64,000 nucleotides of DNA from Favolaschia claudopus (taxonomy: Eukaryota; Basidiomycota; Agaricomycetes; Agaricales; Mycenaceae): assembly GCA_037176885.1 (NCBI GenBank), contig JAWWNJ010000134.1, positions 372,001 through 436,000 on the forward strand, in the 5' to 3' direction. This document shows positions 32,823 through 57,220 of the stretch, one piece after another. Positions within the stretch are counted from its first letter, which is position 1, and every line of letters starts with the position of its first letter. Under the pieces are notes generated by a model. That model did no database searches. It was not told the origin of the DNA and saw nothing but the letters and a program-made list of their open reading frames with translations. The position numbers and the translations under genes were made by a program.

Positions 32823-33592
32823 GTATTTAAAAGCTGGGAAGCGTCTCAGCTGCCGCCGCGCAAGACATCTTTGTAATCCGGCAGAAAGGGTAAATGACGT
32901 GGGTGAAGTTGACTCAGGCGATCCGTTTCTCAAAAGTTTCGCATACGGTGTTTCAACCCGGCGCCAGTTCGTCGTAAAAGAGACGATTTGGGATTTCTTG
33001 AGGCGAGAAGCAAGTCAGTCAGCTATTCCGTTCTTGCGGAAAACAAACTCAGATCGAATTGACACGACGCGTACATAGATGTCAACAACGCGCTCATCAG
33101 CCGGATCGAGCGGCCCGAGCGTGTGAAGCGTATCATCACACTGTGACGCTGCGTGACGAGTCCCCCCCCACAAAGCACGATGCCTGTACCACAGTAGCTC
33201 TGGCCCCCATGTAGCTGCTCTTCTTGGTGTGTCCAAAGTTTCTGTATCTTTGATTGTTCAAACTAAGTACTCAAACGGGCCTTAAGTTTGCTCTTGTTTA
33301 GTCATTCTCCATGACTTGCGACCTGGGCACTGCCAGTGGCAGCCTGGCTGCCTGAGGTTGTAACTTCCGACCTGTAAAGCAAAGCCCGTGACCCTAGACG
33401 CCAATTTCTGTGATCATTTTCTTTGCAAAAGTGTGTCTTATTCTATATCAGAGCTTATCCTTCGGCAGGCTTTGCGTCGTTGCGACCTATGAAACTTCGT
33501 CTGTCCTGCCGATTTTTATCTCGGGCCGTTTGTCTACCGGTACATCGCCGACTACGACGGTCCCCGCTCTGTTCACTGCCTAGCGCCTGCGG
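32823..33592. repeat. Duplicated block, first copy, left half
   Basis: The sequence from TATTTAAAAGCTGGGAAGCG onward matches 39025-39655 with scattered differences, including the shared TTTGTAATCCGGCAGAAAGG and the minus-strand peptide TLHTLGPLDP. The copies differ by small indels, so any coding frame has drifted; copy 1 keeps ERVVDIYVRVVSIRSEFVF open where copy 2 is shifted. Confidence 0.7.
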
Positions 33593-33600
33593 TCAAAATA

Positions 33601-36600
33601 GGCTCATGACCCATGCCAGTTGAGCCCAAGTCACTTGGGTCCATTGCATCCGAGTGACAGGCACGGATCGCTGATGTAAATCAACTCCGAGTATTCCGAA
33701 CCAAATCCGAACCACACAACACGTCAACAACGCGTCGCGCTACGCTGAATGTAAAACTACTTAAAGCCTTCAAGAGAGGCTGCGTGGTCTTGTAGGCAAC
33801 TGTAGATAGGCTTGATTTGCATAACAGCCGATTCGCGGGCGAGCGGAGCGAGCCCGTGCGAACAGCGAGCGAAGCGAGCTGTCTAGGTAGGTTGATATAC
33901 AGAAAGTCTGGTTTTGAAACGGGGGCGGGGGACCTGATCTTGATTTGTTCTGGGCCGAAGTTGAGGAGAGTGTTCAACTTCTCGGAGAATCAGACGAGTT
34001 GATGTGACTGAGCGCAAAGTTCTGACCATTGTACATGTTGCATCTCGTGTAGGGTCCATAGTATTAAGCATGGTTGTCAGTGATTATAAATTTGTCAACT
34101 TGAAGCTTAGAATGAAACAGTCTCCCCAGTCACAATTTGAGTAGATAGAAATTCCACCACTTACCAGTCTTTTGACGCGTATGGAGAAAATTTTATGCGT
34201 GATTGTTGAAGTATTTACGAAGGTGATTGACTTTATGTGACTCGGGAGTTGGAGTGCCAGTTGATTTGAATTTTTTGAGTCTGAGTTTTGCCGAAGCATG
34301 CCTCGCCCTGGCTATTCAGCAAGAAATTGCAGTAGACCCGTGTAGTTATTGGTGATTGGCTACTGCATACATCTGCGTCGTCGAAGCTTCAATTTAGGCT
34401 TGATAGGTTGAAGATTGAATTAATGCGCGGCTTGGCCGCGAGCGGCAGATTCAGACTCAATCTCAGTAGAAATAAGACAGAACAGCCATGAGCATTGTTG
34501 CTTTATAAATTGGATCATACAGAAGTCGAGGATCGAGATATCTCAGAGAGAATACCCAAGAACGCCGGAAGATTCTGAGAATGTTTGGTTGGGCCTGAAG
34601 GTTTCATCATTTCGATGGTTTGACCGGAAGAGAAACTGGCTGAGGGCAGTGATAGAGCTTTAGTTCCATGTTATCCTGTTGCGAGAACAATCGCCGCAGT
34701 GACCGAGGAGCCAGCGCAAGAACTGAGTGTCGATGTTGAGTTGAAGAGGAGCAAAGTGTCAAAGTGATGGCGCCGCGGGATTGGACCGGGAACACGTGTC
34801 AGCAGCGTGATGTGTGGAAGATAAAGATAAGATGAATCGTTTGATTTTCATTCGCTGGACCCTAGTCTATCTGAGGCGATTCCTTTAGTTGGTCTTGGGC
34901 CTTGCAATCAATCACCGTCAACGTAGCCGAGACTTGGGCTTCAAAACTTGATCTGCCTTTGCGTTGTATTCAAGAACATATCTTAGCCCGGAAATTGACG
35001 GAACAGCTGCCAGGTAAGTTACTGAAATCCCTCCCTTTTTCCCCCTCTTTTTCTCTTTTTTCCTTCCTTTTCTTTTTGATTTTTTCGCTCGTCTCCACCG
35101 ACATGGGACATGGGCCAAAATAGGCTCATGACCCATGCCAGTTGAGCCCAAGTCACTTGGGTCCATTGCATCCGAGTGACAGGCACGGATCGCTGATGTA
35201 AATCAACTCCGAGTATTCCGAACCAAATCCGAACCACACAACACGTCAACAACGCGTCGCGCTACGCTGAATGTAAAACTACTTAAAGCCTTCAAGAGAG
35301 GCTGCGTGGTCTTGTAGGCAACTGTAGATAGGCTTGATTTGCATAACAGCCGATTCGCGGGCGAGCGGAGCGAGCCCGTGCGAACAGCGAGCGAAGCGAG
35401 CTGTCTAGGTAGGTTGATATACAGAAAGTCTGGTTTTGAAACGGGGGCGGGGGACCTGATCTTGATTTGTTCTGGGCCGAAGTTGAGGAGAGTGTTCAAC
35501 TTCTCGGAGAATCAGACGAGTTGATGTGACTGAGCGCAAAGTTCTGACCATTGTACATGTTGCATCTCGTGTAGGGTCCATAGTATTAAGCATGGTTGTC
35601 AGTGATTATAAATTTGTCAACTTGAAGCTTAGAATGAAACAGTCTCCCCAGTCACAATTTGAGTAGATAGAAATTCCACCACTTACCAGTCTTTTGACGC
35701 GTATGGAGAAAATTTTATGCGTGATTGTTGAAGTATTTACGAAGGTGATTGACTTTATGTGACTCGGGAGTTGGAGTGCCAGTTGATTTGAATTTTTTGA
35801 GTCTGAGTTTTGCCGAAGCATGCCTCGCCCTGGCTATTCAGCAAGAAATTGCAGTAGACCCGTGTAGTTATTGGTGATTGGCTACTGCATACATCTGCGT
35901 CGTCGAAGCTTCAATTTAGGCTTGATAGGTTGAAGATTGAATTAATGCGCGGCTTGGCCGCGAGCGGCAGATTCAGACTCAATCTCAGTAGAAATAAGAC
36001 AGAACAGCCATGAGCATTGTTGCTTTATAAATTGGATCATACAGAAGTCGAGGATCGAGATATCTCAGAGAGAATACCCAAGAACGCCGGAAGATTCTGA
36101 GAATGTTTGGTTGGGCCTGAAGGTTTCATCATTTCGATGGTTTGACCGGAAGAGAAACTGGCTGAGGGCAGTGATAGAGCTTTAGTTCCATGTTATCCTG
36201 TTGCGAGAACAATCGCCGCAGTGACCGAGGAGCCAGCGCAAGAACTGAGTGTCGATGTTGAGTTGAAGAGGAGCAAAGTGTCAAAGTGATGGCGCCGCGG
36301 GATTGGACCGGGAACACGTGTCAGCAGCGTGATGTGTGGAAGATAAAGATAAGATGAATCGTTTGATTTTCATTCGCTGGACCCTAGTCTATCTGAGGCG
36401 ATTCCTTTAGTTGGTCTTGGGCCTTGCAATCAATCACCGTCAACGTAGCCGAGACTTGGGCTTCAAAACTTGATCTGCCTTTGCGTTGTATTCAAGAACA
36501 TATCTTAGCCCGGAAATTGACGGAACAGCTGCCAGGTAAGTTACTGAAATCCCTCCCTTTTTCCCCCTCTTTTTCTCTTTTTTCCTTCCTTTTCTTTTTG

Positions 36601-36638
36601 ATTTTTTCGCTCGTCTCCACCGACATGGGACATGGGCC
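33601..36638. mobile_element. Head-to-tail dimer of a 1.5-kb hAT-like TIR element
   Basis: Two essentially identical 1,516-bp copies (33601-35116 and 35123-36638) are separated by AAAATA, and the pair is flanked by TCAAAATA at 33593-33600 and 36639-36646. Each copy begins GGCTCATGACCCATG and ends CATGGGACATGGGCC, giving imperfect inverted ends of about 24 bp (GGCTCATGACCCATGCC against GGCCCATGTCCCATGTC). Eight-base duplications and short inverted ends fit hAT elements. No transposase is encoded, so the units are non-autonomous. The dimer splits a block that is uninterrupted in the other copy at 39025-40465. Confidence 0.72.
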
Positions 36639-37455
36639 TCAAAATACCCCGAAACCTCCCGCAATGATAGCTCAATCTCTCCGTCGATATTTATCTGAAG
36701 TACGATAACCTTCAATTCGAGAGGGCGCGATTGGGCTTCACCCAAGTCTCGGTGTACATGTCCGTGGTAACCGTGACAATGAAGCGGCCAGAGACTCGCC
36801 TTCTGGTGTGGAATTGACGGATTTGCAAAGCATCTGGATCGACATACGTATGCGACGACTGTACCTCTTGCTCTAGCTTTTTCACAAATTTATCTTTCAA
36901 CAGAATGTTCCTTCCGGTCTGATTTAGACTTCTGCGCATCCGCCTCTGATAATATATGACCCGAAACCTCCCGCGTTCGAGGGTTTCAAACTTGTTTCAG
37001 TTCAACAAGACGTGGCAAATCCGCACCGAACAACAGCAGCTCTAGTTGACGAGGTGGTTTGTTTTCGTTACACTACATTACAAAACTTGTGTGAGTCCGT
37101 GCTGACCGTTCACAGCAATGTCAACTGCGGAGCCGTCACTCTCCTGGTCAATCACAGTCCATGCATTTCAACAAATCCGCCATTGAAACCGTCCCAATGT
37201 CAACGTCGTGCGAACAACCTCCAAATAGACCTCCCGTTTTGCTCCCGCGGAAACCAGGCATCACTCTTTTCAGGGTCATGACCTCCCGCTCCGAACTGAT
37301 TCAAAGCACAGGAATCTTACCTGTCTCCGGCGGACACCAATTTTGTCAAGGGACCCATATTCAAAACACCAACTCCTCGCCCCGGATTGGCTCTCGGTGT
37401 GTCGGATATGAATCCGATTGCAAGTTAATTGCCTCAGGTTTACCTGAACGCGGTC
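36639..37455. repeat. Duplicated block, first copy, right half
   Basis: Matches 39655-40465 closely until the copies diverge after GCGGTCTT. On the minus strand both copies retain a peptide with the blocks YVDPDALQIRQFHTRRRVSG and FIVTVTTDMYTETWVKPNR, which looks protein-derived but ends in a stop and is not assignable. Confidence 0.7.
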
Positions 37456-39024
37456 TTCCTGAAAGAAGCACGGGAAATTAAGCACACACCTCGCAGTCGC
37501 CCGCAACGGATGCCTGACAAAGACGATCCACCGCCAAATTGGACAAGTAGATTGTCCGGTAGGCCAAACAAGAGAATCTTCGAGCGAGGCAAAGAAGACC
37601 GAAACGAAACCTCACAACGGCAACGAATGGAAAGAGAAAGAGACCCACGAATTGGCCTCACATGTGGCAACAAATAATTGTAGTGCCGCAGTGCATGAGC
37701 AGGAAATGAGAAGGTATAACAATGCTACCCGCAAAGACTCACGAGAAATTTGGTGTACAGGACGCCGGAATAGTGAGCACTACAGCACAGCGGCGTACAG
37801 GGAGAGTAATACTGCACCCAGAAAATCCGGCATACAGGCTGCAGCGGCTCGCAAGGAGCATGCAAACAGAGTAATAGGCACTGCAGCATGCAAATTGCAG
37901 CATACAGGCCGAAATAATACTGCAGAGGCACGGAAATTCCGGCGTGCAGGCCGCAGCGGCTCACTGCGGAGCATGCGGACGAAATAGTGGGCACTGCAGC
38001 ATGCAAATTGCAGCATACAGGCCGAAATAATACTGCAGAGGCACGGAAATTCCGGCGTGCAGGCCGCAGCGGCTCACTGCGGAGCATGCGAACGAAATCA
38101 CAGGCACTGTAGCATGCAAATTGCAGCATACAGGCCTAAGTTTTTCGCAATCTTGACCTGGAGAACAGACCACAGCAAACAAAAGTTCTGAAGTGATAGA
38201 TAACGTACCAAATGACACCGAATTGTGGGCAGAAAGGCACAGGATTACAGCGGCGCGGAGGCACAATATAATTTGGTGAAAAGGCACATACAGCAAGTGG
38301 CGCACATGCGCACGAAATAAATTGGCACAAATGCGCACGAAGGAATTTGGCATAAAGGCATGGGATATGGGGCCCGAAAGCACGACATGATGCAAGAAGG
38401 AACCCAAGACAGTAGACAGTCGAATGCTCGAGGCAATCTGTGGAGACTGACAGTACTACGAAACAAAGAAGGACCAGGAATTACGCACATTGTTTGCTAT
38501 GTTAGCCGGCATACCACAAAGCTTTCATTTCCGAGATGTGAATGTTGAGAGGGTAGGTTGACCCCACGCGCAGGCCGGTCAAGATGTCGGGACTCGGGAG
38601 AGGAAAACCTTGAATGATATGCTTGTTTGCGATCGAGCGAGCGAGAAATGGGAATTGAGGATGGCCAAAAGGCATAATGGCAAAGGCCAGATAAATATCG
38701 CAATGCCAAGTAGCATGCATGCTGAAACCGGTTGGACGAAAGCCTCAGAGAGTGCGAGTCTTGACGGAATAGGGGTAGGAGCAGCATCGGGTCGTTGAGA
38801 CTAGCTGGAACCAGGTAACAAGGAAAGGCATTGTATCAGAGCCGCATGAAATGCTAAGGTGAGAGACAAGAAGGCCCAGAAGCCCCCAGACAACGCAGTT
38901 CCAAAACCGAGAAAGCCTTGATGAGAGCGAGAGGAAAGAAGAGAGACGATCATCGATCAATGATCGGCATCTTTCCTTCTCGCTCTCTTAGCTAGCCGGC
39001 TAACGCTTTGAGCACCCGAGAAGC
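37456..39024. other. Spacer between duplicated blocks with tandem repeats
   Basis: Holds the 113-bp tandem repeat and, at 38220-38370, a run of loosely repeated GGCACA/GCGCAC words. No gene recognised; minus-strand cysteine-rich frames here come from translating the repeat. Confidence 0.5.
37777..38139. repeat. 113-bp tandem repeat
   Basis: The word GCACTGCAGCATGCAAATTG starts at 37878 and 37991, and a near copy (GCACTGTAGCATGC) starts at 38104, giving a constant spacing of 113 bases. Copies 1 and 2 are almost identical, copy 3 is partial, and a degraded version precedes them from about 37777. The repeat is rich in GCATGC and CTGCAG. Confidence 0.8.
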
Positions 39025-40465
39025 ATTTAAAAGATGAGAAGCGGCTCAGCTGCGGCCGCGCAAGACATGTTTGTAATCCGGCAGAAAGGGTAAATGACGT
39101 GGGTGAAGTTGACTCAGGAGATCCGTTTCTCAACCCAGCGCCAGCTCATCGTACAAGGCACGATTGGGGGGAATCCCTTGAGTCGAGAAGTAAGTCTGCT
39201 ATCCCGTTCTTGCGGAAAATGAAAGAGTTTGAATTTGATGCGACGCGTACATAGACGTCAACAACGCGTTCATAGTGCCGGGATCGAGCGGCCCGAGCGT
39301 GTGAAGTGTTATCATCACACTGTGACGCTGCGTGACCAGTCCCTTCAAGTCCTCCTCAATGTCTGTGTACCACAGTGGCCATGACTCCGGGGAGGCTGCT
39401 CGCTCTTGTGCGCCGCGGAAATTTGTATCATCGATCATATGAACAACTTGCTTTGGTGCGGTGTGCAGTAAGCACATAACTAGACTGAGGCAAGATTGAG
39501 GTCGATTTCTTCAATTTTCAGTATTTGTGCAAGGACCCAAGTTATCTTGAAACTTTCTGCACACCCAAATTCTATCTTGCACCGTTGGCCTACCGGTACT
39601 TGATTGCTCCTTGCCGACTACGATGGTCCTGACTCGTCGCACCTGCGGTCAAAACATCCCGATCCCTCGCAATGATAGCGTCGATATTCATCTGAAGTGC
39701 GGTAACCTTCAATTCGAGAGAGTGCGATTGGGCTTCACCCAAGTCTCGGTGTATATGTCCGTGATAACCGTGACAATGAAGCGGCCAGAGACTCGCCTTC
39801 TGGTGTGGAATTGACGGATTTGCAAAGCATCTGGATCGACATACGTATACGGCGATCGTCTGTACCTCTTGCTCTGCCTTTTTTCAGAGATTTATTTTGC
39901 AACAGAATGTTCCTTCCGGCCTGGTTTAGACTTCTATGTACCCGCCGCTGATAATATATGAGCCGAAACCTCCCGCATTCGAGTCTCGACTCTGGTGTCA
40001 AACTTGTTTCAGTCCAACAAGACGCGGCAAATCCGCACCGAACAACAGCAGTTCTAGTTGACGAGGTGGTTTGTTTTCATCAGACTACATTCCAAAGCTC
40101 CTGTGAGTTCGTGCTGACCGTTCACAGCAACGTCAACTGCGGAGCCGTCACTCTCCTGGTCAATCACAGTCCATGCATTTCAACAAATCCGCCATTGAAA
40201 CCGTCCCAATGTCAACGTCGTGCGAACAACCTCCAAATAGACCTCCCGTTTTGCTCCCGCGGAAACCAGGCATCACTCTTTTCAGGGTCATGACCTCCCG
40301 CTCCGAACTGATTCAAAGCACAGGAATCTTACCTGTCTCCGGCGGACACCAATTTTGTCAAGGGACCCATATTCAAAACACCAACTCCTCGCCCTGGATT
40401 GGCTCTCGGTGTGTCGGATATGAATCCGATTGCAAGTTAATTGCCTCAGGTTTACCTGAACGCGG
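39025..40465. repeat. Duplicated block, second copy, directly upstream of laccase
   Basis: An uninterrupted copy of the block that is split at 32823-37455. It ends about 85 bases before the laccase start codon, so it includes the presumed laccase promoter region. The other copy lacks a laccase. Confidence 0.7.
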
Positions 40466-40549
40466 TCTTGGCCAGCCGAAGTCGGAAGGGATCGAGTACA
40501 AAATGCGCTGGAAACACAAGCTCCTTTCCCAGACGCACGAGACAGCATC

Positions 40550-43749: not shown

Positions 43750-44123
43750 AGCGAGAGATGATTAGTTTCAGACGAACGGTTTGATTTTTGTGGTCTTTAT
43801 AGATTCAGATGCCGACTATTAATGATGTGATATATTATAAACTTTCAGTTTCAGTGCGACTTTGCAGGAAACATCGGTATACATGTGGTGTACACTTCGC
43901 CCGGCGTCCATCTTCGATTCTCCCAAGTGAACTTTAAGATAAGGCAAAGCAAGCATCCCCTGTAATTGCGAAAATCGAGCAAAAAGAGATTTACAATGAA
44001 AACACTTCGAATTTTGACGAAACTGGAAGATGGAAAATCGGAACAGGGAATTATTGATTGAAAAATTCTGTCACCGCACAAGAGCTGCTTTGTTGTGGGA
44101 AAGAATGACAATAGACCCAAAGA
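43750..44123. other. Spacer between laccase and the palindromic element
   Basis: No gene seen. It ends with CAAAGA at 44118-44123, the left target duplication of the palindromic element. Confidence 0.5.
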
Positions 44124-44154
44124 TATGGCGGTCAAAATGCACATTTAAGTTTCC

Positions 44155-44420
44155 GACACATATACCGAGTTCGCGACACATATATTGACCAAAATTCGAT
44201 TTTTCGACACATATGTGCAGTTTGAGGCGGTGAGTAAAAGTGTCGCGATTTCGTCGGATTCGCGACACTTTTACACTCGCAATTCGAGATCGCGACACAT
44301 TTATGCAGTCAAAGTTGAGTGGCCGACACTTTTAGTTGCCAGCCCTTTCCGCGACACTTATTTACTCACGCGCAACTTTCGCGACACTTTTATTTGCGCA
44401 AACTGAAACCCCGACACTTT
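44155..44420. repeat. Subterminal CGACAC array, left
   Basis: Nine direct copies of CGACAC, usually followed by TTTTA or ATAT, plus one inverted copy (AGTGTCGCG), are spaced by roughly 20-40 bases. The same array occurs inverted at 55075-55340. Arrays of this sort near element ends often serve as transposase binding sites; that role is inferred. Confidence 0.7.
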
Positions 44421-44491
44421 TCTTTGCAGAGACCAATAATGATTAAATTGCGAGGTAAGGTAAAGTGAAACAAGCTAAGAGCATCTAGATT

Positions 44492-45305
44492 TTAGAGAGG
44501 AATTTCAATTTTCACACCCGCAACACTATCCCTCAGCGCAGCCCGAATTGGTTCATCTCGCTGAACTTTCATCAACTCCGCAATCGCCTGTTCCACGAAT
44601 CGCTCCTCGTCTGTGAACAAACTCTTCCCCCAAAGCCACGTAACCGTCAAGTCCTGGCACCCGTAACACAGCCCTGCGATATGCGAATTACGCAACTGAT
44701 CCAGCAAGTCGACGCAGCTGATGGGCTGCTCGGGGTGATGGAGTAGCTGGCGGACACTGTATTCCCACTCACACTTCCAAGCCTCCATGCACCTCTCCAC
44801 AGTACGGCACCCCTCTGCATTGACAAGTGGTGGGACATTGAAAGCAATCGTATTGCGCGCCGACTGTATGCGAGCCTTGGTCCGAGCAAGCCAGAAGAAG
44901 CCGGTGAGGCCAATTTGAGAGACCTCATTGAGGGTGAGGGAGGACAGGTCGTCCTTCATCAAGCGATAGAATGCGCGCTCGACCCAGGCCTCGATCCCAT
45001 AGCATCGGCCAAGCTCGAACTGGAGGGCAGCAGGGCTGAGGGAAAAGATTTCCGCGACGGGTAAACTCGGACTTGACGTATTTCATTCCGTCTTCGATAT
45101 CAAACAATGCCGACATCGCCATGACGGAAACAAGAAAGTCGACGGAAACAAGAGTGACTGTGTCTTCCTCGGAGGTGGGATATGAGCTGGCCAACAAAGC
45201 AGAGAGTGAATGAAAGTAAAGAGAAAAGAGGATATAGGTGACACACCTCGGCCCCCAGTAGAGATAAATGAGCAGGTTATCAAAGTCGAATTTCTTGATG
45301 CACAT
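44492..45305 (-). pseudogene. BTB-type protein remnant, left arm copy
   Basis: The minus strand reads CIKKFDFDNLLIYLYWG, a GTGTGT...CCAG intron, then SYPTSEEDTVTLVSVDFLVS and MSALFDIEDGMKYV, then after a frame change AALQFELGRCYGIEAWVERA, LMKDDLSSLTLNEVSQIGL and IQSARNTIAFNVPPL, ending VAGVKIEIPL. This order resembles the second half of mushroom BTB/POZ-type proteins (end of the BTB fold, then the helical extension with a Cys/Trp-rich end). The N-terminal half is missing: upstream the sequence runs into a passenger element at 45361. A frame step near 45055 could be a short intron or a lesion. Confidence 0.55.
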
Positions 45306-45360
45306 CGGAAGCCAGATGGGGTTGCTGTCGAGCCTTCCTTCCGTTAAGATGGAAGATGGT

Positions 45361-46112
45361 CATCAGCAAACAGGTTTTTCCCGGGTAGCTGCAGGCCAGT
45401 GCTATGTATTGCCGGTAGCTCTGGTAGCTCCTCACCTGCAGCACAGTATCCGTTGGTAGCTCCAGTAGCTGTTGGCTTGGAGCACGGTAGCTGCAGTAGC
45501 TATTCGCTTGAAGCACAGTAGCCGTGAGAGCTTTCAGCGTGCAGATTGGTAGCGTCGGTAGTAGCCATAGTACAACCTGCATGAATGATAGCGTAAAAAT
45601 TTTCCGTATGCCTGATAAACGGCTAACTCACCGCGCTTCAACTCCTTGTTATGCCGTACAGCCCATACACGTCCGTTTACTAATATCTTGTGAATGGGGC
45701 TCTTCGTGGATTTTGCTGTAGAGGCTATATATCATTCAAACGAGTACTATGAACAAATATTAGCTCTCTCACAAACCGGAATCAAGATTGAAATTAGTTA
45801 TCGAGGTTTTGTCGAGGGTCACCCTGTGTCACAGTGTCACGTTTGCGAACGCAACCGAGGACGAGAGAATGGGGGGTCTTAATTTCTCGGCAGATAGATA
45901 TAGAGATCAACAAGAACAATCGATTACTCGCCTGTGAATCCATTTTGAAATGGTCTGAATCAGAAAACAATCCAAATTATTCAATTCTACAGACAAAAGA
46001 AGTCAATTGCACGGTTGCGAGTGAGATATAATTACAGATGATATCAGAACCGCCCCGCCCTGCCAAGCGATCTCATTCGTACTCTCCGCTGCTCCTCTTC
46101 CTGCTTCTGATG
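45361..46112. mobile_element. Putative 752-bp passenger element, left arm
   Basis: Begins CATCAGCAAACAGG and ends CCTGCTTCTGATG, with GT directly outside each end (45359-45360 and 46113-46114). The left terminus matches the right end of the 3.1-kb insertion (CATCAGCAATCCCTGG on its minus strand) including the following GTTTTT. Its left part (45390-45550) is rich in GGTAGCT and GCTGCAG words. It interrupts the BTB-type gene. The other terminus matches only loosely, so the limit at 46112 is tentative. Confidence 0.4.
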
Positions 46113-46159
46113 GTACATATCAACAAGATACCGGAATAAATACACCTATATAGCCCAAC

Positions 46160-46219
46160 AAACCCGCCTAATTAGGCTGGGAGACATATAGGGTATCCCA
46201 GCCTAGTTAGGCAGGGTTT
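46160..46219. repeat. Nested palindromic hairpin
   Basis: Arms 46160-46182 and 46196-46219 are inverted repeats with only a few mismatches around a 13-base loop. Each arm itself contains a palindrome, GCCTAATTAGGC and GCCTAGTTAGGC. The mirror copy is at about 50174-50233. Confidence 0.8.
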
Positions 46220-46418
46220 TAAGCGATTCAGGGTGGGCGCGATAATTGCGCTCTAATTCGCTATTTAACAGGGCGCAATAAATATAAAGTCGTTAAAGGT
46301 TTGACAGCGTGTAGAACACCGCGCCGCCATCAGTCCACTTGTCACCGCTTGATGTTCATCAAAGATGCGGGCGGCGATGACACGTCCCGACTCTGCTATC
46401 ATCATTCCCGCCGCCCGC

Positions 46419-49400
46419 CATTTTCAACTATCTTCAGCCCGAACCAAGGGAGTTTCAGCTCTGAGAACATGTACTTATTCAAGGTGCAGTGCTTATATGT
46501 TTATTTCACGGTCTCGCAGCCATCCACATTGAATACAAGATAGGTTGAGTCCAAGTTGAGTCCTGAACACCACTCCCTTGTCAGCACCAACACAACAGGT
46601 TGCAATTAAGCCACCCTCCTTGATATATATGCTCCCTGCTCCCTGAAATTCATTTTTTTATGGCACAGAATCACCGGCAGAGCGCGAGCGCCAGGTATGA
46701 GATCCACTGTCATACTACTCTAGTTAAGTTAGCAAAGTATCCGCAATCTATTAAAGTCAAGCTATGCTCAGTAGAATATTAACAGTGCAAGGCGGCCCAG
46801 CAGCACCGAGAAAAATGCAGAAAAGCTGCACATCATCAATCGAGGTCCGGTCCGAAGAGCCGATACTCAACGCCTTTGACCGGATTTGGCAATTCCTACT
46901 TCGAGAGAGCCGGATTTGCAGTGGACTCATCCCAGAGAGAATTGCATGGTTTAAATAGCTTAAACAGTCCCCTTTAGCTTTCTTGCCTATAGGATTGAGC
47001 CACAGGTTACATGACTTTTGAATTCGGCAAGTATATTTGGTTTGCAATTTATATTGTCAGTTCGGGATAGAAAAGCAGGGGAAGGCAATATTGATTTTGC
47101 ATAGGATAGTTTTTACTTTGAATGAGTGGTTACAATAGCCGTGTAACATGTGTGGAGCTATCAACCGGGTTTGGTGTGCAAATACACACATATAAGGCCA
47201 ACATATGTGGAAGCAAAAAATACCAGATCCAGTCAATAGAATGGCACAGTGAGCCATTCCTTGCGCTTCGAAGGTCTCGATTACCCCCAATGAAATGTGG
47301 TAATTTTCTAGCATGCAACCTCCAGTTTCCGAGACTTAAACCTCTTTGACCTTTTGTGGCGCCTAGTACCTACTTATACTACGCCATGTCAGTGCAGTTG
47401 CACTCTCAGCAAGGAGGTGAACTACACTGGTAGTCCAGCTAGCTTTGCAAGTAGTAAAAATGATTGAATACAATACTTGTTATAATCAGCTCTATACTGC
47501 TCGGTATTTCAGCGCTACTACTAAGTGCGAAATATTTGGCTCTCAACTATGTTCGAGAATCAGTTCGCGACAATAATTGAATTTTCGACATTTGGCCAGA
47601 CCAATGCTTCTTATTTTGACTCATTGAGCATTCTAGACATCTAGTGACCCTGTTTAAATATTACCAGACTTTTCTGACCTCCGAAATCAACGATTCGAAA
47701 GAAAAAAAGGATTAAGCGCCGAACTCTTCAAATTAGGTGCCTATCCCGGGCCGCGCTTCCAGCCAATGGGAGGCTGCTCCGATAAAGCCGACATATGTTG
47801 AATTCGCGCTGAACTATGGTTTCTCGTCGATTTCTCGCTTGTTTTGACTTCAGTTTAACAGAATTCAGTCAAGGAATGGTAGTTGATATAGCATCTTGAA
47901 TATTTCACAATCTCAGCGGCCATAAACATCGAGAATGAAAAAAAATAAAATGTCACCAAGGCGGCAGAGCCTTGCGAAATCAACAGCAACGACTACTTGA
48001 AGCCAAAGTAAAGGAAAATAAAACTGAGGTAGGCTGGCCGGGTCAGGTACAAATGTCTCTTACCTGGACAAGAAGGCATTTACAAGGCGGTAAATATGAG
48101 GTATAGTCAAAGTATAGCTTCGGTTTTGTGAGTTGACATTCATTGTGGTATGAGATTGATGAAACAAGGGTCAGAGAGCAACAAGGCAAGCGAGTATAGA
48201 AATATGTACCGTGACGCAACACGGATTGTATAAGACGAGTCCGAGAACAGGAGGGCTCGGGGTAGAATTGTCGGAGCACTCACTTCTTGCTTCCCTTGAG
48301 AACTTACCCCGAGCAATGATACTGCTTAGCGCTTAAAGAATTCTTACTTTTGAAGATTGTAACTGTGTCGAGTGAGTGCGCTGGTAGGATAGGTATTCAA
48401 GGAAGTGTATTTACATGTGTATCTCCTACACAAATGTGCATGGTCCTGTGAGCCGTTGATAGGCCTGGGATGAAAACACCCCGTGTTTTCTCAATTTTTG
48501 AACATGTTTAACATTATATAACGCGTGTTTGAACTAAGAGGAATAAAGGGACATCTCTAGGATATATCTCAGAGGGTTAAAGCGTACCCGCGCTGTTAAC
48601 TAAATGATGCAAGGGAAAGCTAGACTTGTCTACGACTTATGATTATCCAGAAATGGATACTCATACACGGTAGTCGAGGATAACAATCCCTCTTCTAAGT
48701 CCAACCATTCTACCAATTGAATTGGGACCTAAGGGGACATCAAGGAACATGGGATAACATTGAAGGAATACTTAGGCAGCGCGTCTAGACCACTATCAAG
48801 GGATTCGAGTCGCGGAACGACGAACCAAGGGAAACCGAGTAGCGGCATAAGGATTGCCGAAGATGCCGAAGAGCGGATCATCATAGGATCAATGATCTTG
48901 AGGAGATTTCTCTACTCAAAGACGAATTAGAAGTTCTGGCAAGAGCCGGAAGGACCTTACCTCGAGGCGAGGCATGAAGCAGGAACATTCGTATCCTCGA
49001 AAGGCTAGCCGCGATGAGTGGGATAGAAGCCAGTATCAAGTCAAGGATCGGGAGGATCCATCACGCACACGTGACCATCACGAGGGATCGACGCGATAGA
49101 TGCGATAATGACTCCTCGTGTGTTTACACGTTACTCGCGCGTGCAACCACAACACACAGGCGTGACTTAACAGCCTCGTCTGCTAAATAAGGACAATACA
49201 CGTACCAGGACACGTAGGTAGATACCCAATTAAGATGTAAATATTTATTCGAGCGTAGTATATAAAGCCTGTAAATTATTAGCTGGGCTCCAGTGGATTG
49301 CTCCCTCCTTGATTGTCCGTGTAAGCTATCAGCCGCACGTTCAGTAAAGAGTGTTCACATCCAGCGGGACAACCCAGGGAACTTACTTAGTTTTCTGTTT

Positions 49401-49974
49401 TGTTTTCAATCTATAAATTGGACTTGTGATTTGATCAGAGAATTGTTAAACGCGTGAAATAAGTGAACTTGAACGGGAATCAGACGCGTGAAACGGAATT
49501 CTGAGATAAGAGAAACGCGAGTACAAGGGATTAAGCGCGACTTAACAGTCTAGTGCCATATTCCATCGGATTGAAAGGAAACTTGAACAAGATAAATTAC
49601 CTAGACTCCTACAACCAACCGACATTGCGAAAAACTAAGTCCTGAGTTCGAAAGGCTCAAATAGGATCGAGTCGCGCCAACTCAAAGCAAGTTTTATCGA
49701 GTCAAGACACCTCGAATTGTATAACATATATCCTCGGATTGGGGAATATAGTCAGATTGCCACAGTAGATACGTTACTGGAACCCCGACTCGCACGCGAA
49801 GCTGAAGTTGTGGATTTTGTTTGAAGGGATTTATTATCTCAACGAATAAAGTTATACAATAAACATATAGCAAGCGTTTCACCGTGATAATAATATCAGA
49901 ACTGTGGCCTGAGTGAGTACATTATCCAAGTGCTTCATTTATGTACCTGCTGAGTTTGAGCTGAACGTCTTTCA
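46419..49974. other. Unique centre of the palindromic element
   Basis: Only short frames are seen, none with a recognisable domain. The part 46419-48300 is AT-rich and apparently non-coding; 48560-49620 has the flavour of a decayed retroelement (see next entry). Confidence 0.45.
48560..49620 (+). mobile_element. Possible LTR-retrotransposon remnant
   Basis: From about 49095 to 49400 the sequence resembles a fungal LTR: CGTGTGTTTACACG, GGACAATACACG, a TATATAAAGCC promoter-like box at 49258 and a GT-rich stretch after it. The upstream part (48790-49090) has the purine-rich character of decayed gag coding sequence. No paired LTR, primer-binding site or intact frame was found, so this is a weak call. 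Confidence 0.25.
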
Positions 49975-51868
49975 GCGGGCGGCGGGAATGTTGATGGCAG
50001 AGTCGGGACGTGTCATCGCCGCCCGCATCTTTGATGAACATCAAGCGGTGACAAGTGGACTGATGGCGGCGCGGTGTTCTACACGCTGTCAAACCTTTAA
50101 CGACTTTATATTGATTGCGCCCTGTTAAATAGCGAATTAGAGCGCAATTATCGCGCCCACCCTGAATCGCTTAAAACCCTGCCTAACTAGGCTGGGATAC
50201 CCTATATGTCTCCCAGCCTAATTAGGCGGGTTTGTTGGGCTATATAGGTGTATTTATTCCGGTATCTTGTTGATATGTACCATCAGAAGCAGGAAGAGGA
50301 GCAGCGGAGAGTACGAATGAGATCGCTTGGCAGGGCGGGGCGGTTCTGATATCATCTGTAATTATATCTCACTCGCAACCGTGCAATTGACTTCTTTTGT
50401 CTGTAGAATTGAATAATTTGGATTGTTTTCTGATTCAGACCATTTCAAAATGGATTCACAGGCGAGTAATCGATTGTTCTTGTTGATCTCTATATCTATC
50501 TGCCGAGAAATTAAGACCCCCCATTCTCTCGTCCTCGGTTGCGTTCGCAAACGTGACACTGTGACACAGGGTGACCCTCGACAAAACCTCGATAACTAAT
50601 TTCAATCTTGATTCCGGTTTGTGAGAGAGCTAATATTTGTTCATAGTACTCGTTTGAATGATATATAGCCTCTACAGCAAAATCCACGAAGAGCCCCATT
50701 CACAAGATATTAGTAAACGGACGTGTATGGGCTGTACGGCATAACAAGGAGTTGAAGCGCGGTGAGTTAGCCGTTTATCAGGCATACGGAAAATTTTTAC
50801 GCTATCATTCATGCAGGTTGTACTATGGCTACTACCGACGCTACCAATCTGCACGCTGAAAGCTCTCACGGCTACTGTGCTTCAAGCGAATAGCTACTGC
50901 AGCTACCGTGCTCCAAGCCAACAGCTACTGGAGCTACCAACGGATACTGTGCTGCAGGTGAGGAGCTACCAGAGCTACCGGCAATACATAGCACTGGCCT
51001 GCAGCTACCCGGGAAAAACCTGTTTGCTGATGACCATCTTCCATCTTAACGGAAGGAAGGCTCGACAGCAACCCCATCTGGCTTCCGATGTGCATCAAGA
51101 AATTCGACTTTGATAACCTGCTCATTTATCTCTACTGGGGGCCGAGGTGTGTCACCTATATCCTCTTTTCTCTTTACTTTCATTCACTCTCTGCTTTGTT
51201 GGCCAGCTCATATCCCACCTCCGAGGAAGACACAGTCACTCTTGTTTCCGTCGACTTTCTTGTTTCCGTCATGGCGATGTCGGCATTGTTTGATATCGAA
51301 GACGGAATGAAATACGTCAAGTCCGAGTTTACCCGTCGCGGAAATCTTTTCCCTCAGCCCTGCTGCCCTCCAGTTCGAGCTTGGCCGATGCTATGGGATC
51401 GAGGCCTGGGTCGAGCGCGCATTCTATCGCTTGATGAAGGACGACCTGTCCTCCCTCACCCTCAATGAGGTCTCTCAAATTGGCCTCACCGGCTTCTTCT
51501 GGCTTGCTCGGACCAAGGCTCGCATACAGTCGGCGCGCAATACGATTGCTTTCAATGTCCCACCACTTGTCAATGCAGAGGGGTGCCGTACTGTGGAGAG
51601 GTGCATGGAGGCTTGGAAGTGTGAGTGGGAATACAGTGTCCGCCAGCTACTCCATCACCCCGAGCAGCCCATCAGCTGCGTCGACTTGCTGGATCAGTTG
51701 CGTAATTCGCATATCGCAGGGCTGTGTTACGGGTGCCAGGACTTGACGGTTACGTGGCTTTGGGGGAAGAGTTTGTTCACAGACGAGGAGCGATTCGTGG
51801 AACAGGCGATTGCGGAGTTGATGAAAGTTCAGCGAGATGAACCAATTCGGGCTGCGCTGAGGGATAGT
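49975..51868 (-). repeat. Right arm of the palindromic element, inner part
   Basis: Inverted copy of 44525-46418. It is separated from the outer 401 bases (54970-55370) by the 3.1-kb insertion. Confidence 0.8.
50281..51032. mobile_element. Putative 752-bp passenger element, right arm
   Basis: Mirror copy of 45361-46112, from CATCAGAAGCAGG to CTGTTTGCTGATG. Being in both arms, it was present before the arm was copied. Confidence 0.4.
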
Positions 51869-51907
51869 CATCAGCAATACCTGAGCCCCCTATGGAGTCC
51901 TATGTAG
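51088..51907 (+). pseudogene. BTB-type protein remnant, right arm copy
   Basis: Same peptide blocks as the left-arm copy, in plus orientation. The frame runs through ELMKVQRDEPIRAALRDS and is then broken at 51869 by the 3.1-kb insertion, which adds a foreign tail and a stop at 51907. The two copies are therefore head to head across the centre. Confidence 0.55.
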
Positions 51908-52869
51908 CGCACTGTAGCACCTGTAGTTGTTGTAGTAACTGTAGAAAGGCCCCCGTGTTGATAGGCGTGTGTAGAAACGGCTAAATTTACGTAGGCCTCC
52001 ATAGAAACCCTGTAGGACACTGTAGTTTTGCTGTAGCTTCCTGTAGTTTTTGCGCTGCCGCCATACTAGAAAAAAAAAGAATTTTCCACAGCTCAATTGC
52101 GGGGCAGAAATATGCGGGAGAAAGTGAATATATTACTACTACGCTGTACAGATACATGGTATTCAACGGGAACAAGAACACTTGACTAGGTGATCTGCGG
52201 GGCAAAGAAAACAATTGATAAGTATGGTGTCGGAACGAAGTAATGCACCAGCACATACATACCTAGGCGACTTGATACCAGCGGACAACGGCCCGACAAA
52301 ACGACCCATCCCAGATCCCGTTGAGACGGGGCAGGCGGAGCCTGCGCGGGAATCGGCTGTGGCGCGTCCGTTAGAGCCGCAAGGGGATGGTGGCGGCACC
52401 CGAACGAGAGATGCGGCTCTTGAGCTGAGCAAACGGAGCTTCCACAGTACAAGGGCTGGGTATTTACAATTACTATAAAATGAAAATACAGCGCAAATGG
52501 GACGCACCGTGGTAACCTTGAGCCTAACACCAGTATATGATGCTCACTGCAGACGTGCGACATATTCAGCTAAATGTAGGTAAACAAACAAAGCTATAGA
52601 CATACCAGAATAGGTTGTACTGAGATCTATGAAGTTGAAATAAGCAACATAGGTGGTCAGAAATTGTAGCTGGAATCCCCATGCAGCGAAGGAGCTTACC
52701 GGTTTTGAGCGGCCTATCGTTTAGACCACCACACGGCGAGGAGACTACGTGAGAAGATGGAGAAAGAATGGAATATTACAGAAACGCACCGTCTGAAGCT
52801 TTGTCCAGAGGAAACCCGAGACGATTCACGCCTACTAGCCTACTAGTAAGCCACACGAAGAACCTGAGG

Positions 52870-53110
52870 GGATTTCAGAAAACGTAGACGATAGATCAAA
52901 GAGATAACTACTCATAGAGAGTGACGCAGCCACCCACTCTGACCCCTGCCAATGAATTGTTCACAGCCGATGCGTCGGATTGAGATAGCGAGCGCGACGA
53001 TGCCGAGGAAGTAGTCGACAATGATAGGAGACCATATAGAGAGGAGGACTTGTAGGGACCAAGTCAACGGGAATACTGAGCAGCGAGGAGGACGACATTG
53101 AGTGGGGATG
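52870..53110 (-). CDS. Possible exon inside the nested element
   Basis: A minus-strand stretch reads WSLQVLLSIWSPIIVDYFLG then IVALAISIRRIGCEQF, a hydrophobic run like a membrane segment. No adjoining exon is certain. It may be captured host sequence. Confidence 0.2.
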
Positions 53111-53233
53111 GTGGAAGGAGAAGAGAAGGAGTGCAAATATTTGTTCCGAACCAAAGTGACCAAGTCATGTGGTTGTGACTTGTCACTGATCTGCGGACTT
53201 CGACAAATTTTCTTCAAGTCTCCCACTCGGCAA

Positions 53234-54190
53234 TGCGCACCGACTCTCGTCTCGGCACCTTCAAGTTCTCCCATCCACCCGCGCTCTCCTCCTCCTCGTC
53301 GACACCGCCTTAAGACGATTCCAAAGCCCTCTCTTCACTCACTCGACGCCGACCCGCTTGCGTCCAGCGCTTGGCGTCACCACCACCTCGACTCTCTCCC
53401 TCTCGCCCTCCTTTCCGTGCGTGCCGACCATTCCATCCTCAACATCCTCAAGAGTATCTCCCACACCGACAACCCCACCCGCCGACGCTCCTTCCCATTC
53501 ACCTGTTTCCGCCGCCTTCACTCCCACCCGCCTCAATCCGCTGTTTTGCTCGCAACCCCGCCGCCACGCATCATTCTCACCTTACCACCACCACTTGCAC
53601 TCGCCGGTACCGGCCTCATGGACAACAAAAGTGCGTCCCCGCCCACGTCTTGATTCTCTCCGCTAACAACATCTTTTAGCGGATACGCATCACCTCCACA
53701 CTCTCTCCGCCTTTCCGAAAGATCACACCTTCTCCGCCACACCACGCCGTCTCTCCTGCACCCGTCAGCCCCGCGGCCGCCGCCCTCATTTCGCCGCTGA
53801 CGCCGACGCCTATCCCATTCACATAGGTGCGTGCCGTCCTTCCTTCATCCTTCCGCGCTTCACTAACAATACTCCCCCCCCGTGTCCCTCCCGTCCCCTT
53901 CCCGATTTGTCGAATGACTCTCCTCCCCGCCTCTCCTCACCTGCGCTGCCGCCCGAACCCTCTGCCACCCCGCATCCCGAGGACGTCGATTTCCCCGACA
54001 CGCACGCACGCTGCGTCGAAATGGCGGCGCCTAATCTTTTCCGGGAGCTCCACCGACGCTGTCATAGCAAGACCCTTGTATCGTCTCGTCCCGCCGCCTC
54101 GTTGCCCTCCCGCACCGGCATCCCGCACTCCCAGAATTCGCCGCCTAATTTCAGCGCCGTTGGCTCCATCTTGCTCGTTTCGACGTGACC
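53234..54190 (+). CDS. Possible Pro/Ser-rich gene carried by the nested element
   Basis: A C-rich, pyrimidine-rich stretch holds several plus-strand frames with plausible GTGCGT...TTTTAG introns (for example about 53631-53680). After that intron one frame reads GYASPPHSPPFRKITPSPP and HHAVSPAPVSPAAAALISPL up to a GTGCGT donor near 53826. The correct upstream frame cannot be chosen, and three overlapping frames are open because of base composition. It has no recognised domain. Confidence 0.25.
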
Positions 54191-54969
54191 GCTTGGTATG
54201 GTAAGGTTTCCGGTCACAACGAATCAAAAAAACTCCCTCTTTAAATCAGTGACCGCGCCGCCGGCGCCGGACGTCTCCTCGACCGCGAAGGCAGAACTGC
54301 GCAAGGTCAGTTCTTTTTTTGCTCGAAGCGATGAAAATGAATACTCACCTTGACAACAAATTAGACCTAAATGTGCTGCCGACTGTGCCTGGATCCGTCT
54401 GAACGTGTCCCCGGAACCGCAAGATGAAGTTAGGCTGGGGAACGAGGTAAGTACATCGGATATACGCGCCGTTGTTTTGTAGTTTCCTTGAAATAAACCA
54501 ACGTCTTGTACTGAGTAAAATGGAAAGTTTGTGTTTGTGTTTGAATGAAACAAATGAAGGCGACGGATAAAACTTGGATAAAACTTACTATTAACTGGCT
54601 AAAAAGCATGCACTGAGTTGAACTGAGCAGGAATGAACATGCGTTTGGAGACCGTCGCATGAGATGAACTTGAAAAAACAGACTCACAAACTGAGACTTG
54701 GGACTTTGGTACAGGTCCTTGCCGCTTTTGCCGCTGTTGGATGCCGCTAGAGTATCAGTCACGGAAGAGCGGAGCCATGAAGCCGCCAGCATCCTACAGA
54801 CCGCTACATATTCCGGCGATTCCTACGGAGAGCTACACGGCCGCCCCATTTCTACAGACTTCTACAGAGACCTACGCAAAAGCCGCGGAACTACACACAG
54901 CTACGTAACTCGGCCTGGATCTACAGCCGCTACCGGCTCCTACGGCAAAAACCAGGGATTGCTGATGGT

Positions 54970-55370
54970 GTTGCGGGTGTGAAAATTGAAATTCCTCTCT
55001 AAAATCTAGATGCTCTTAGCTTGTTTCACTTTACCTTACCTCGCAATTTAATCATTATTGGTCTCTGCAAAGAAAAGTGTCGGGGTTTCAGTTTGCGCAA
55101 ATAAAAGTGTCGCGAAAGTTGCGCGTGAGTAAATAAGTGTCGCGGAAAGGGCCGGCAACTAAAAGTGTCGGCCACTCAACTTTGACTGCATAAATGTGTC
55201 GCGATCTCGAATTGCGAGTGTAAAAGTGTCGCGAATCCGACGAAATCGCGACACTTTTACTCACCGCCTCAAACTGCACATATGTGTCGAAAAATCGAAT
55301 TTTGGTCAATATATGTGTCGCGAACTCGGTATATGTGTCGGAAACTTAAATGTGCATTTTGACCGCCATA
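54970..55370 (-). repeat. Right arm of the palindromic element, outer part
   Basis: Inverted copy of 44124-44524 with the CGACAC array. It ends at the 55370/55371 junction followed by the CAAAGA duplication. Confidence 0.8.
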
Positions 55371-55532
55371 CAAAGACGGTACCCACGGGTATACGGTTCA
55401 CTTAAAGACTCTTGATCAAATCCTAACGCTGTGTATCAACAAAGATTTGCCGCAAGACCAGCGACGGCTTACCGTACGCCACTTATGAGTCGTCTCCAAT
55501 GAACGATATACCATTCGAAACTAGTGAAGAGG

Positions 55533-56680
55533 TCACTCATGGGTGTCAGAAAGGAAATTCAGCCCACTACTCACTCTTTGGTGCTTGACTACTGTAGGTA
55601 GAACTTTCCCGATCGATTCCGCCATCTCTTTCGCGCTCGGCGAGACTTCGAATTCGACAATAAGCGCCGATGAAGCCACCAGGAGTGCCGACAAAGCACG
55701 ATCCAGTGCCGCATGTTGTGGCTCATCGTAATCTGAGCCTACGTTGACCACGATGGTGTGAATTCGATGCGCCGGCGAGATGGTTGCGAGAGTATCAACG
55801 ACGCTGCGCCAGCTATTCGTGACGACAGCGAGGCGTACAATACGAAGATTCTTGAAACGCGTTAGATCGAGACCTGCAGTTGGCTGTTGTGAAAGGGGTG
55901 AGAAAGATTTAAACTGCTCAGAAACTGGCTCACCGATAATTCGAGGTCCAAGAACTCAATTGATTTCTCAGCGGCAAGCGGTAAATTGCCCCAGTGATTC
56001 GATCCCATACTGTAATAGACAAGAGCTTTCAAATTCGACAGATCGAGTGGGTGGATATCCTTTTGTGGGAACGAGAGATCGAAGGCCAGGGATGTGAGAT
56101 GGATCGCCGGCAATTTCGCGAGACGTTTTTTAGACTTCTCATCTTCGTCGTCCTCCTCTGGACCGGCATCCTCATCATCTCCGTCGAACGACTCGCATGT
56201 CACAGAAAGATGTCGGAGGGTGGGACAGAGCGCGATGAACGGAACACAAGAGGAAAAGGTGTCGTCCGTTATGAGCGACAGTGTACGCATGGTGGGTATC
56301 GACAGTAGGGGTTCGTACTGTTTTGCCGATTCCTTGGGATCCTCGACGTCCACCGTGAGTGTATCGAGATTCGGAAAAGGAACGTTACAAAGACGGTCGA
56401 TTACAGACTCCTCGAGCTCGGCCTCATCAATATAGAGCTCGCGGACGTGGTGCAGTAGATGAGGAGAGTCCGTTAATACGTTGCAGAATTGTAGTGCCAC
56501 TCCATCGGCGTAAGAAAACGACCCCGTTGTTTCGTGCGGGATGCGGAAAAGACGTGATTGTGCCGGGTCCACCCACGAGCGAGCTACGAGGGCGCAGCTG
56601 AGGAGGTCTTTCGTGGTGGGTAGAGAACCAATGCAAAGGTCGAGTAGCTCCTGTATCAGCAGAGGGTTTCTATGGTCCAT
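55533..56680 (-). CDS. F-box-like protein with leucine-rich C-terminal region
   Basis: The start at 56680 reads MDHRNPLLIQELLDLCIGSL, then TTKDLLSCALVARSWVDPAQ, which fits an F-box-like helix set (substrate-adaptor type, binding Skp1). Leucine-rich segments follow (HHVRELYIDEAELEE, FPNLDTLTVDVED, CPTLRHLSVTCES), then an acidic insert (DDEDAGPEEDDEDEKSKK), then HLTSLAFDL and LEFLDLE-like blocks. A 50-base intron (55884-55933, GTGAGC...ACAG) joins LDLELS to PTAGLDLTRFKNLRIVRL. It stops at 55533, about 365 residues. F-box-like proteins of this kind are strongly expanded in mushrooms. The gene looks intact and begins next to its own decayed relatives at 57.5 kb. Confidence 0.7.
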
Positions 56681-57220
56681 CCAGTGAGATCCGGAGGGAC
56701 TCCAGTCGAGAGCAACGATGCACAGTGACACATCATGCACTGGCACATTGCACAGCCTTCTTGATGGGAACGTGATGGGAACATGTCTTGGCGGCGCTTG
56801 TCTTGGCCGTTTTTCAACTGATGGCGGCGAGAGCACCGCCGAATCGCCGGCATACTTTCTGTAGGCTCACAGCAGTTGAAAAAACAAAGAGCGACAGTGG
56901 AAGGTCACTAATTCAAAACTGATTCTTTTCTACCTAGAAAAACAATACTTAGTTCATGTTCGATGGAAACTGTTAGCGCCGGCCGTGATGCCGAAACTGC
57001 CTCTTGAAGTGCGCAACTTGGCTCTCCACAAAGAAGGATCTTAAAGGCTTCATTTATGATCTCTCGAAACTTGAGCAAAGATTGATTCTCAACCCATAGC
57101 TGCACTTTTATGCTCAGCATACTCACACCACCCTTGTTGTGCTCTTCCCGAGCGCTCGAGCGTGATCAGATCAACATCTGATGCGCGGCATTGTTCTGCA
57201 AGCTCAGTAAACACCACAAA

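Follow-up and report, generated by a model that had tools for sequence, protein, structure and literature searches.

A palindromic unit in the genome of Favolaschia claudopus, located at positions 44124-55370 of the window (the whole stretch of 64,000 nucleotides that was analysed), is probably (at a probability of about 0.6) a non-autonomous derivative of an IS3EU-like transposon with a BTB-like gene and an integrase gene, and would consist of two inverted copies of the BTB-side half. As to its formation, we favour, with a similar reservation, fold-back repair templated by the repeats of a nested transposon (B), followed by transposition of the resulting unit with two left ends.

Anatomy of the palindrome

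Self-comparison of the window revealed two inverted matches: 44525-46418 against 51868-49975 (1,894 bp, 3 mismatches) and 44124-44530 against 55370-54964 (407 bp, 2 mismatches). The unit is flanked by its 6-bp target duplication, the direct repeat CAAAGA at 44118-44123 and 55371-55376. Once the nested insert D (51869-54967) is set aside, the arms measure 2,019 bp outside B on the left and on the right, and together with 276 bp of the B terminal repeat they form inverted arms of 2,295 bp. These extents and the duplication agree with a preliminary description of this DNA made from the sequence alone. The true differences between the arms are one in 2,019 bp (44341) and three in the 276 bp of the B repeat (46280, 46397 and 46402); the apparent mismatch at 44527, which sits in the end of D, was left out.

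The left arm begins on the plus strand with a terminus assigned to the IS3EU-like family (TATGGCGGTCAAAATGCAC..., 44124-44307), matching MITEs of about 0.8 kb at 79-92% over about 180 bp, followed by a subterminal region with many CGACACTTTT-type motifs (44308-44491, plus strand). Next comes the 3' part of a BTB-like accessory gene on the minus strand (44492-45360), whose 5' end is missing where the gene meets C, a Plavaka-like element inserted in the gene and represented by one end (CATCA..., 45361-46142, plus strand). The pivot of the palindrome is transposon B (46143-50250), bounded by a left terminal inverted repeat (CACCTATATAGCCC..., 46143-46418, plus strand) and a right one (49975-50250, minus strand). 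It contains a solo LTR of 1,425 bp on the plus strand (48457-49881, TGATAGG..TTTCA) with CCGT on either side. The right arm carries the inverted copy of C (50251-51032, minus strand) and the inverted copy of the BTB-like remnant (51033-51868, plus strand), which resumes past D at 54970-55002. The outer part of this arm (54970-55370, minus strand), comprising the BTB 3' end, the subterminal region and the right terminus, duplicates the left, BTB-side end, from which it differs at one position in 401 bp. The second transposon in the middle, with its own inverted repeats and solo LTR, and the Plavaka-like remnant in each arm extend the preliminary description.

A genome search with the subterminal stretch 44290-44524, which skips very common words, gave two matches, namely both arms of the palindrome. 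The subterminal region shares short motifs with the MITEs. No RNA families were detected in the window at gathering scores.

Outer termini and the mobile family

The first 301 bp of the unit gave at least 79 matches in the genome, all confined to the first 184 bp; this number takes in the window's own and short internal matches, and most of the strong ones begin at base 1. A 25-base end pattern, allowing up to two mismatches, was found 278 times genome-wide (142 + 136), compared with 0 + 0 when the pattern was reversed as a control. Of 19 paired family ends, 15 are flanked by a direct repeat of 6 bp or more that varies from site to site; they represent 14 distinct sites because L054 and L055 have the same flanks. 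Two proper end pairs are without a duplication (L041 at 960 and L053 at 225), and the other two are mispairings (L041 at 168, and L053 at 1060 with an uncounted 7-bp repeat). The preliminary description had proposed a non-autonomous mobile unit, to be abandoned if its termini were single-copy; the search that it suggested, with the first 300 bp, instead yields many copies ending at the same base and flanked by different 6-bp duplications.

In the cited part of PMC12730594, IS3EU elements are defined by (i) termini TAYGG..CCRTA; (ii) terminal inverted repeats (TIRs) longer than 30 bp; (iii) a 6-bp target duplication. The palindrome ends in TATGGCGGTC..GACCGCCATA, within this consensus, with a TIR of more than 30 bp. 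Besides CAAAGA and the 15 of 19 family pairs, the duplication is present in the C16 element (CGGCTC) and in three of five complete BTB elements. Placed by termini and duplication length, the outer ends belong to a mobile IS3EU-like family; the same two features ruled out a Plavaka identity for it (family A).

The two ends of the unit are 100% identical over 184 bp. End-to-end identity in relatives is 69.1-97.3% in 15 MITE copies and 74.6% in the C16 element, while three complete BTB elements reach 89.8-91.2% over 260 bp, the BTB-side and the other end carrying distinct sequence. None of the 19 other copies compared has two identical ends; the outer ends of the palindrome are the same end twice.

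The 14 open frames scanned inside the unit gave no Pfam match, though short or spliced transposase remnants could escape such a scan; the palindrome is thus non-autonomous, in line with the earlier remark that no transposase is visible. A separate Pfam scan took ten ORFs chosen from more, including one each of C338 and C16. The 5.4-kb C16 element was considered as autonomous partner and rejected: it has family ends and the CGGCTC duplication, but its 406-aa ORF is without a Pfam match at E 0.01. No transposase was found in the ORFs scanned from the C100, C24 and C56 stretches, which have family ends in one orientation only; they gave an F-box-like match below threshold (C100) and a copia gag containing a zinc knuckle (C56).

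Nested elements B, C and D

Copies of B elsewhere are flanked by an 8-bp duplication at six of seven two-ended copies; the copy at C9 sits in a GGAA repeat, where the duplication length is ambiguous. Judged by this feature, B is an 8-bp-duplication transposon, with Zisupton or hAT considered as candidate superfamilies. Inside the palindrome B has no 8-bp direct duplication, and its flanks AATAAATA and TATTTATT mirror each other. The B repeat in L062 is about 404 bp long, versus 276 bp matching on the right side here, next to which lie the LTR and some other sequence of about 90 bp. For C, an 86% match is present at C202:138160-138943, and the sequence there continues without B, making it a B-free site.

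According to the part of PMC12730594 cited, PlavakaB elements have CATCA..TGATG ends and a 2-3-bp duplication. D, confined to the right arm, has these ends and the duplication GT (51867-51868 and 54968-54969), and may be assigned to PlavakaB by both features. Elsewhere, D is flanked by TA, TA, TT, AA and GGG at five of seven other loci, by 1 bp only at L036, and unreadably at L039; the flanks are identical at L034 and L035.

The BTB-like gene in complete elements

The remnant in the arm begins at about codon 64-76 of a gene of 314-332 codons and has no Pfam match. Among three full-length homologues, P0002 reaches the BTB/POZ cut-off and the other two are without a match at E 0.01; the label "BTB-like" is used because of the P0002 match and the source name of P0006.

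The genome contains complete elements of 6.8-9.2 kb with family-type ends, in which a BTB-like gene is divergent from an integrase gene. Family-type ends are paired around a BTB-like gene at five loci (C145, C198, C222, C88 and C59). Perfect 6-bp duplications flank three of them (C145 TGAATG, C198 GGATCG, C222 AGTACT); C88 and C59 have no matching 6-bp duplication. An integrase-type transposase (PF24764), as IS3EU elements have, lies between the same kind of ends in at least four of the five (C145, C198, C222 and C59), with none in C88 among the matches listed. Among the matches listed, no fewer than 16 of the 45 BTB-like loci that lie outside the window have a divergent integrase within 3 kb, while 25 of the 45 have none within 10 kb. 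The spacing is 1,346-1,498 bp at 15 of the 16 loci and 1,913 bp in C222. The rough chance rate for such a pairing is 0.08% per locus; the loci are not all independent, some being near-copies of one another. The pairing suggests that part of the mushroom's BTB gene repertoire is transposon-borne. No paper linking a BTB gene with an IS3EU transposon was found in the open-licence papers searched, and the literature search found none on F. claudopus or Mycena genome expansion.

Origin of the palindrome

In the proposed sequence of events, the Plavaka-like C would have inserted in the BTB gene of a full element, ordered BTB-side end, BTB, integrase, other end; B would then have entered C, creating an 8-bp duplication. 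If the DNA later broke, or a fork stalled, on the far side of B, the right terminal repeat of B may have folded onto the left one or invaded it. Repair synthesis would have moved outward from there, copying C, what remained of the BTB gene and the terminus on its side, so that the product was palindromic and faced outward with the same end twice. Lost in this step would have been the integrase, the genuine other end and the second duplication of B; the LTR retroelement that left a solo LTR in B could have arrived earlier or later than this step. Integrase from complete copies elsewhere would next have acted on the two identical ends, inserting the palindrome and creating CAAAGA, and D would have entered the right arm last.

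The nesting of the elements, the family ends with their duplications and the identity of the outer ends are read directly from the sequence, as are the BTB-integrase pair in complete relatives and the mirrored flanks of B. An origin by inverted duplication, one of the options raised in the preliminary description, is likewise readable, since an 8-bp duplication would be expected around B and is absent. The B repeats differ more than the arms outside B (3/276 versus 1/2,019; Fisher p = 0.006, post hoc), as expected if their divergence predates the copying of the flanks. That the parent had the BTB-integrase pair, that repair proceeded by fold-back at the B repeats and that transposition came after inverted copying is what we infer from this pattern. 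An unduplicated ancestor of the lineage was not found in the genome. Since no match to the stretch 44290-44524 was found outside the two arms, and protein identity to the remnant is 53% in its nearest BTB relatives within the genome, the parent is known by type and not by copy.

If the palindrome did transpose, an IS3EU-type transposase accepts one end twice, though the complete copies compared have distinguishable ends. The locus records, in readable form, one way in which a fold-back transposon can arise, an unrelated nested transposon supplying the inverted repeats that turn half an element into a palindrome with two usable ends.

Alternative explanations

The same anatomy, with a nearly equal end product, would result if a complete IS3EU-like element with CAAAGA was already resident and its far half, once broken, was rebuilt on the near half as template, with repair beginning in the inverted repeat of B and reconnecting within the outer terminal repeat; the palindrome would then never have transposed. 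Such in-place duplication is possible, but we consider it doubtful. A comparable mechanism (TIR1-F1-F1-TIR2) is put forward for Galileo TIR extension in the cited part of PMC3573991, and ends about 90% alike over 260 bp, as in the three complete BTB elements, are enough for annealing. However, the right terminus equals the left from the last base through position 217, whereas in the three complete copies the ends first differ at base 13, 43 and 44; rejoining would therefore have to lie within a few dozen bases of the extreme end, unless full conversion followed. Near-identical inverted arms are also a known form of assembly artefact, and a palindromic chimeric read or misjoined repeat would produce them. 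This is very improbable here, given that the palindrome stops precisely where a transposon terminus meets its target duplication, that D and its own GT duplication occur in one arm only, and that four true differences separate the arms.

The preliminary description had also suggested a fold-back element that captured a host gene. Its mobile, non-autonomous part stands; host capture of the BTB gene is hardly to be expected, even though remnants lie in both arms and proteins of other Mycena species are closer (56-65%) than the element-borne genes of this genome. Within this genome, the genes closest to it belong to complete transposons and diverge from an integrase gene, the six best all adjoin family ends, and in complete elements the gene has the same position and orientation relative to the end as in the palindrome. 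The remnant is thus probably the transposon's own gene.

A further proposal concerns function: besides being a repair product, the palindrome might act as a natural silencer, read-through giving a hairpin RNA with near-perfect 2-kb stems. We regard this as improbable. Mu killer silences Mutator in maize. Exact 21-mers of the terminal 184 bp of the stem are common to 11 of 14 tested MITE loci, so small RNAs from it could silence the MITE family. With the C145 BTB/integrase stretch (L092) there is no 21-mer in common, and silencing of that element is therefore not predicted.

Comparison with known systems

The comparisons below are limited to the cited parts of each source. Fungal IS3EU elements (PMC12730594) are similar in 6-bp duplications, TATGG..CCATA ends and TIRs longer than 30 bp. 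Their TET+ families combine transposase and alpha-kinase genes in opposite orientations, as the complete relatives here combine integrase with a divergent accessory gene. The differences relate to the accessory gene, which is BTB-like here, and to the palindrome itself, which lacks a transposase and has one end in two copies. Styx of Zymoseptoria (PMC10853768) is IS3EU-related and, as here, shows 6-bp duplications, several genes, solo TIRs and local rearrangements; it is about 7.9 kb long with other accessory genes, and palindromic copies are not mentioned in the part cited.

The long inverted arms filling much of the unit recall Foldback and Galileo. In the "2 recombinant TIR" copies of Galileo in Drosophila mojavensis (PMC3573991), internal sequence is likewise recruited into inverted arms, and repair from the other end is the model, as here. 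In contrast, Galileo belongs to the P superfamily, with 7-8-bp duplications against 6 bp here and longest TIRs of about 1.26 kb against arms of 2,295 bp; here, a foreign transposon nested in the element forms the pivot, and the arm includes a third element besides the remnant of a gene. Multiple-TIR MULEs and Pack-MULEs (PMC3310237) also have elaborated long TIRs, some with gene fragments, but MULE duplications are 9-11 bp and the extra TIRs are tandem or solo, and unlike in Pack-MULEs the gene in the palindrome is probably the transposon's own.

Borders and internal anatomy of the palindrome

In the 264.6-Mb assembly that contains contig C134 (JAWWNJ010000134.1), the palindromic unit at 44124-55370, first proposed in the preliminary description, is real and its borders are exact: self-comparison recovered both arms, and CAAAGA (6 bp) is present on either side. 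The proposed arm length was likewise reproduced; each arm comprises 2,019 bp outside B, the nested transposon at the pivot, together with 276 bp of B terminal repeat. Base-by-base comparison revealed a single difference (at 44341) in the 2,019 bp outside B and three in the 276 bp of the B repeats; a mismatch at 44527 was not counted, its position lying within the end of the nested insert D. The contrast between 3/276 and 1/2,019 (Fisher p = 0.006, in a test picked post hoc with the data already seen) is as would be expected if divergence between the two ends of B came before copying of the outer arms. A minus-strand open frame of 334 codons (55862-56866), some 0.5 kb beyond the unit's right border, has a sub-threshold F-box-like match.

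In the left arm, the BTB homology ends at 45350-45359 and is followed by C, a Plavaka-like remnant (45361-46142) that begins CATCA and matches contig C202 at 86%. The C202 sequence runs uninterrupted past the point equivalent to 46142, thus without B, which starts at 46143 and extends to 50250. Elsewhere, copies of B measure about 2.5-3.1 kb, have CACCTATATAGCC ends and are flanked by 8-bp duplications: CTTGACAC (C19), CCCTCGCC (C168), CCGGGAAA (C43), CCATTGAG (C60), GACGTTTA (C57) and, inside a GGAA repeat, GGAAGGAA (C9); a seventh copy, on C69, has no 8-bp duplication. The window copy has AATAAATA on one side and the reverse complement of AATAAATA on the other, with no direct repeat beyond a 2-bp TA, itself produced by the mirror symmetry. 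An insertion does not leave mirrored flanks of this kind; they are what results once an inverted copy of one flank has taken the place of the opposite flank. Insert D (51869-54967), with PlavakaB-type ends, is found in the right arm only, so that it either arrived later than the duplication or was left out of the copying.

A solo LTR with CCGT on both sides (48457-49881) is located inside B. Its family (loci L022-L032) has LTRs of about 1.43 kb, 96-99% identical to the solo LTR, which occur on nine contigs as same-strand pairs 15.6-15.9 kb apart; this spacing implies an element of about 17.3 kb, very long for an LTR element of a fungus. Self-comparison of the window also revealed a head-to-tail duplication (33591-35122 and 35113-36646; 99.8% identity over 1,534 bp) and a second repeat pair (36682-37457 and 39679-40469; 93% identity). 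A tandem repeat at 37821-38136 has a 113-bp period, 2.8 copies and 89% matches.

The terminus family

The ends of the unit belong to a mobile family. The preliminary description had named multiple copies ending at the same base with differing 6-bp duplications as support for such a family, and both features were observed. A genome-wide search with the first 301 bp returned many other matches; none extends beyond base 184, and the stronger matches mostly begin at base 1. Duplications of 6 bp, varying from site to site, flank 15 of 19 end pairs, at 14 distinct sites. The fetched and paired copies are mostly 0.79-0.82 kb long with terminal inverted repeats (TIRs) of about 180 bp, the exception being two longer nested pairs on C12. 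A 25-base terminus pattern with up to two mismatches gave 142 forward and 136 reverse matches in the genome, its reversed control none at the same threshold. Three main subtypes were distinguished among the matches listed: TCAAA, TCCAAATG and TTAAAGTG.

The family agrees in termini and duplication length with the fungal IS3EU elements as described in PMC12730594. Its putative assignment to IS3EU rests on these two features and on the integrase-core gene of its relatives.

At loci L043 (C12:1256546-1258657) and L041 (C126), short copies of the family (MITEs) are inserted into or adjoin one another; those on C12 form a nested pair with a separate 6-bp duplication for each. A MITE copy with shared flanks occurs on C338 and C28 (L054/L055), as a result of either segmental duplication or haplotypes left uncollapsed in the assembly.

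The BTB-like gene and its integrase partner

The BTB-like protein of the arm (P0001) matches the genome in at least 49 places, merged into 47 loci, 45 of them outside the window; the integrase core PF24764 has at least 189 matches. A divergent integrase lies within 3 kb of at least 16 of the 45 loci and at 3-10 kb from at least four more, these being lower bounds from 141 PF24764 matches, with some loci near-copies of one another. Fifteen of the 16 close pairs are 1,346-1,498 bp apart; the remaining one, on C222, is separated by 1,913 bp. Among the matches listed, 25 of the 45 loci, including those on C88, C69 and C18, which are among the closest relatives, have no divergent integrase within 10 kb. 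The divergent pair with its 1.35-1.50 kb spacing is repeated genome-wide in diverged lineages, and one such pair adjoins a TTAAAGTG-type end at C26:1341468.

On C145, the order is a TATGGCGG terminus, a BTB-like gene directed toward it and an integrase directed away. This BTB-like gene has six relatives outside the window (93-97%), and paired termini enclose a gene of this type on C145, C88, C198, C222 and C59, spanning 6,847-9,217 bp, with a perfect 6-bp duplication in three of the five. On C69 a terminus adjoins the gene; on C18 none occurs within the 351 bases examined near it, and one lies on its far side, at C18:1840455. The gene in the window arm lies at the same position with respect to the terminus, and points the same way, as in the C145-type elements. 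It is probably part of the transposon, and the recurring pair suggests that a BTB-like gene is an accessory common to these elements in general. A simple reading is complicated by the protein identities: the window protein shares 53% identity with C145-type genes but up to 65% with proteins of other Mycena species. This places the unit in a sister lineage; no complete copy of that lineage was found in this assembly.

Origin of the two identical ends

After exclusion of two mispairings, of the L053 pair at 225 and of L054 as a duplicate, 15 of the 19 end pairs remained for comparison; in these MITE copies, identity between the ends is 69.1-97.3%. The corresponding values are 74.6% for the C16 element and 89.8-91.2% over 260 bp for three complete BTB elements, in which the BTB-side end is marked by its difference from about base 44. 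Both outer ends of the palindrome are this same BTB-side end. The simplest account of two BTB-side ends with a clean 6-bp duplication, to which we give a probability of about 0.6, is that the palindrome formed first and was then transposed: inverted duplication would have created a palindrome with two BTB-side ends, and its transposition would have generated the 6-bp duplication. Conversion in place would yield the same product without any transposition of the palindrome, but it needs rejoining inside the last few dozen bases and is considered less likely. For the duplication itself, we infer a repair mechanism from the anatomy of the palindrome.

Comparison with known systems

Among the open-licence papers searched, a weak basis for negative statements, neither a fold-back element pivoting on a nested foreign transposon that is recognisable by its missing duplication nor a BTB gene within IS3EU elements was found. 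Accessory genes have been described in IS3EU elements of rusts and Tuber (PMC12730594), and Styx has been described in Zymoseptoria (PMC10853768). Extension of TIRs by recruited internal sequence, together with a repair model, is described for Galileo (PMC3573991).
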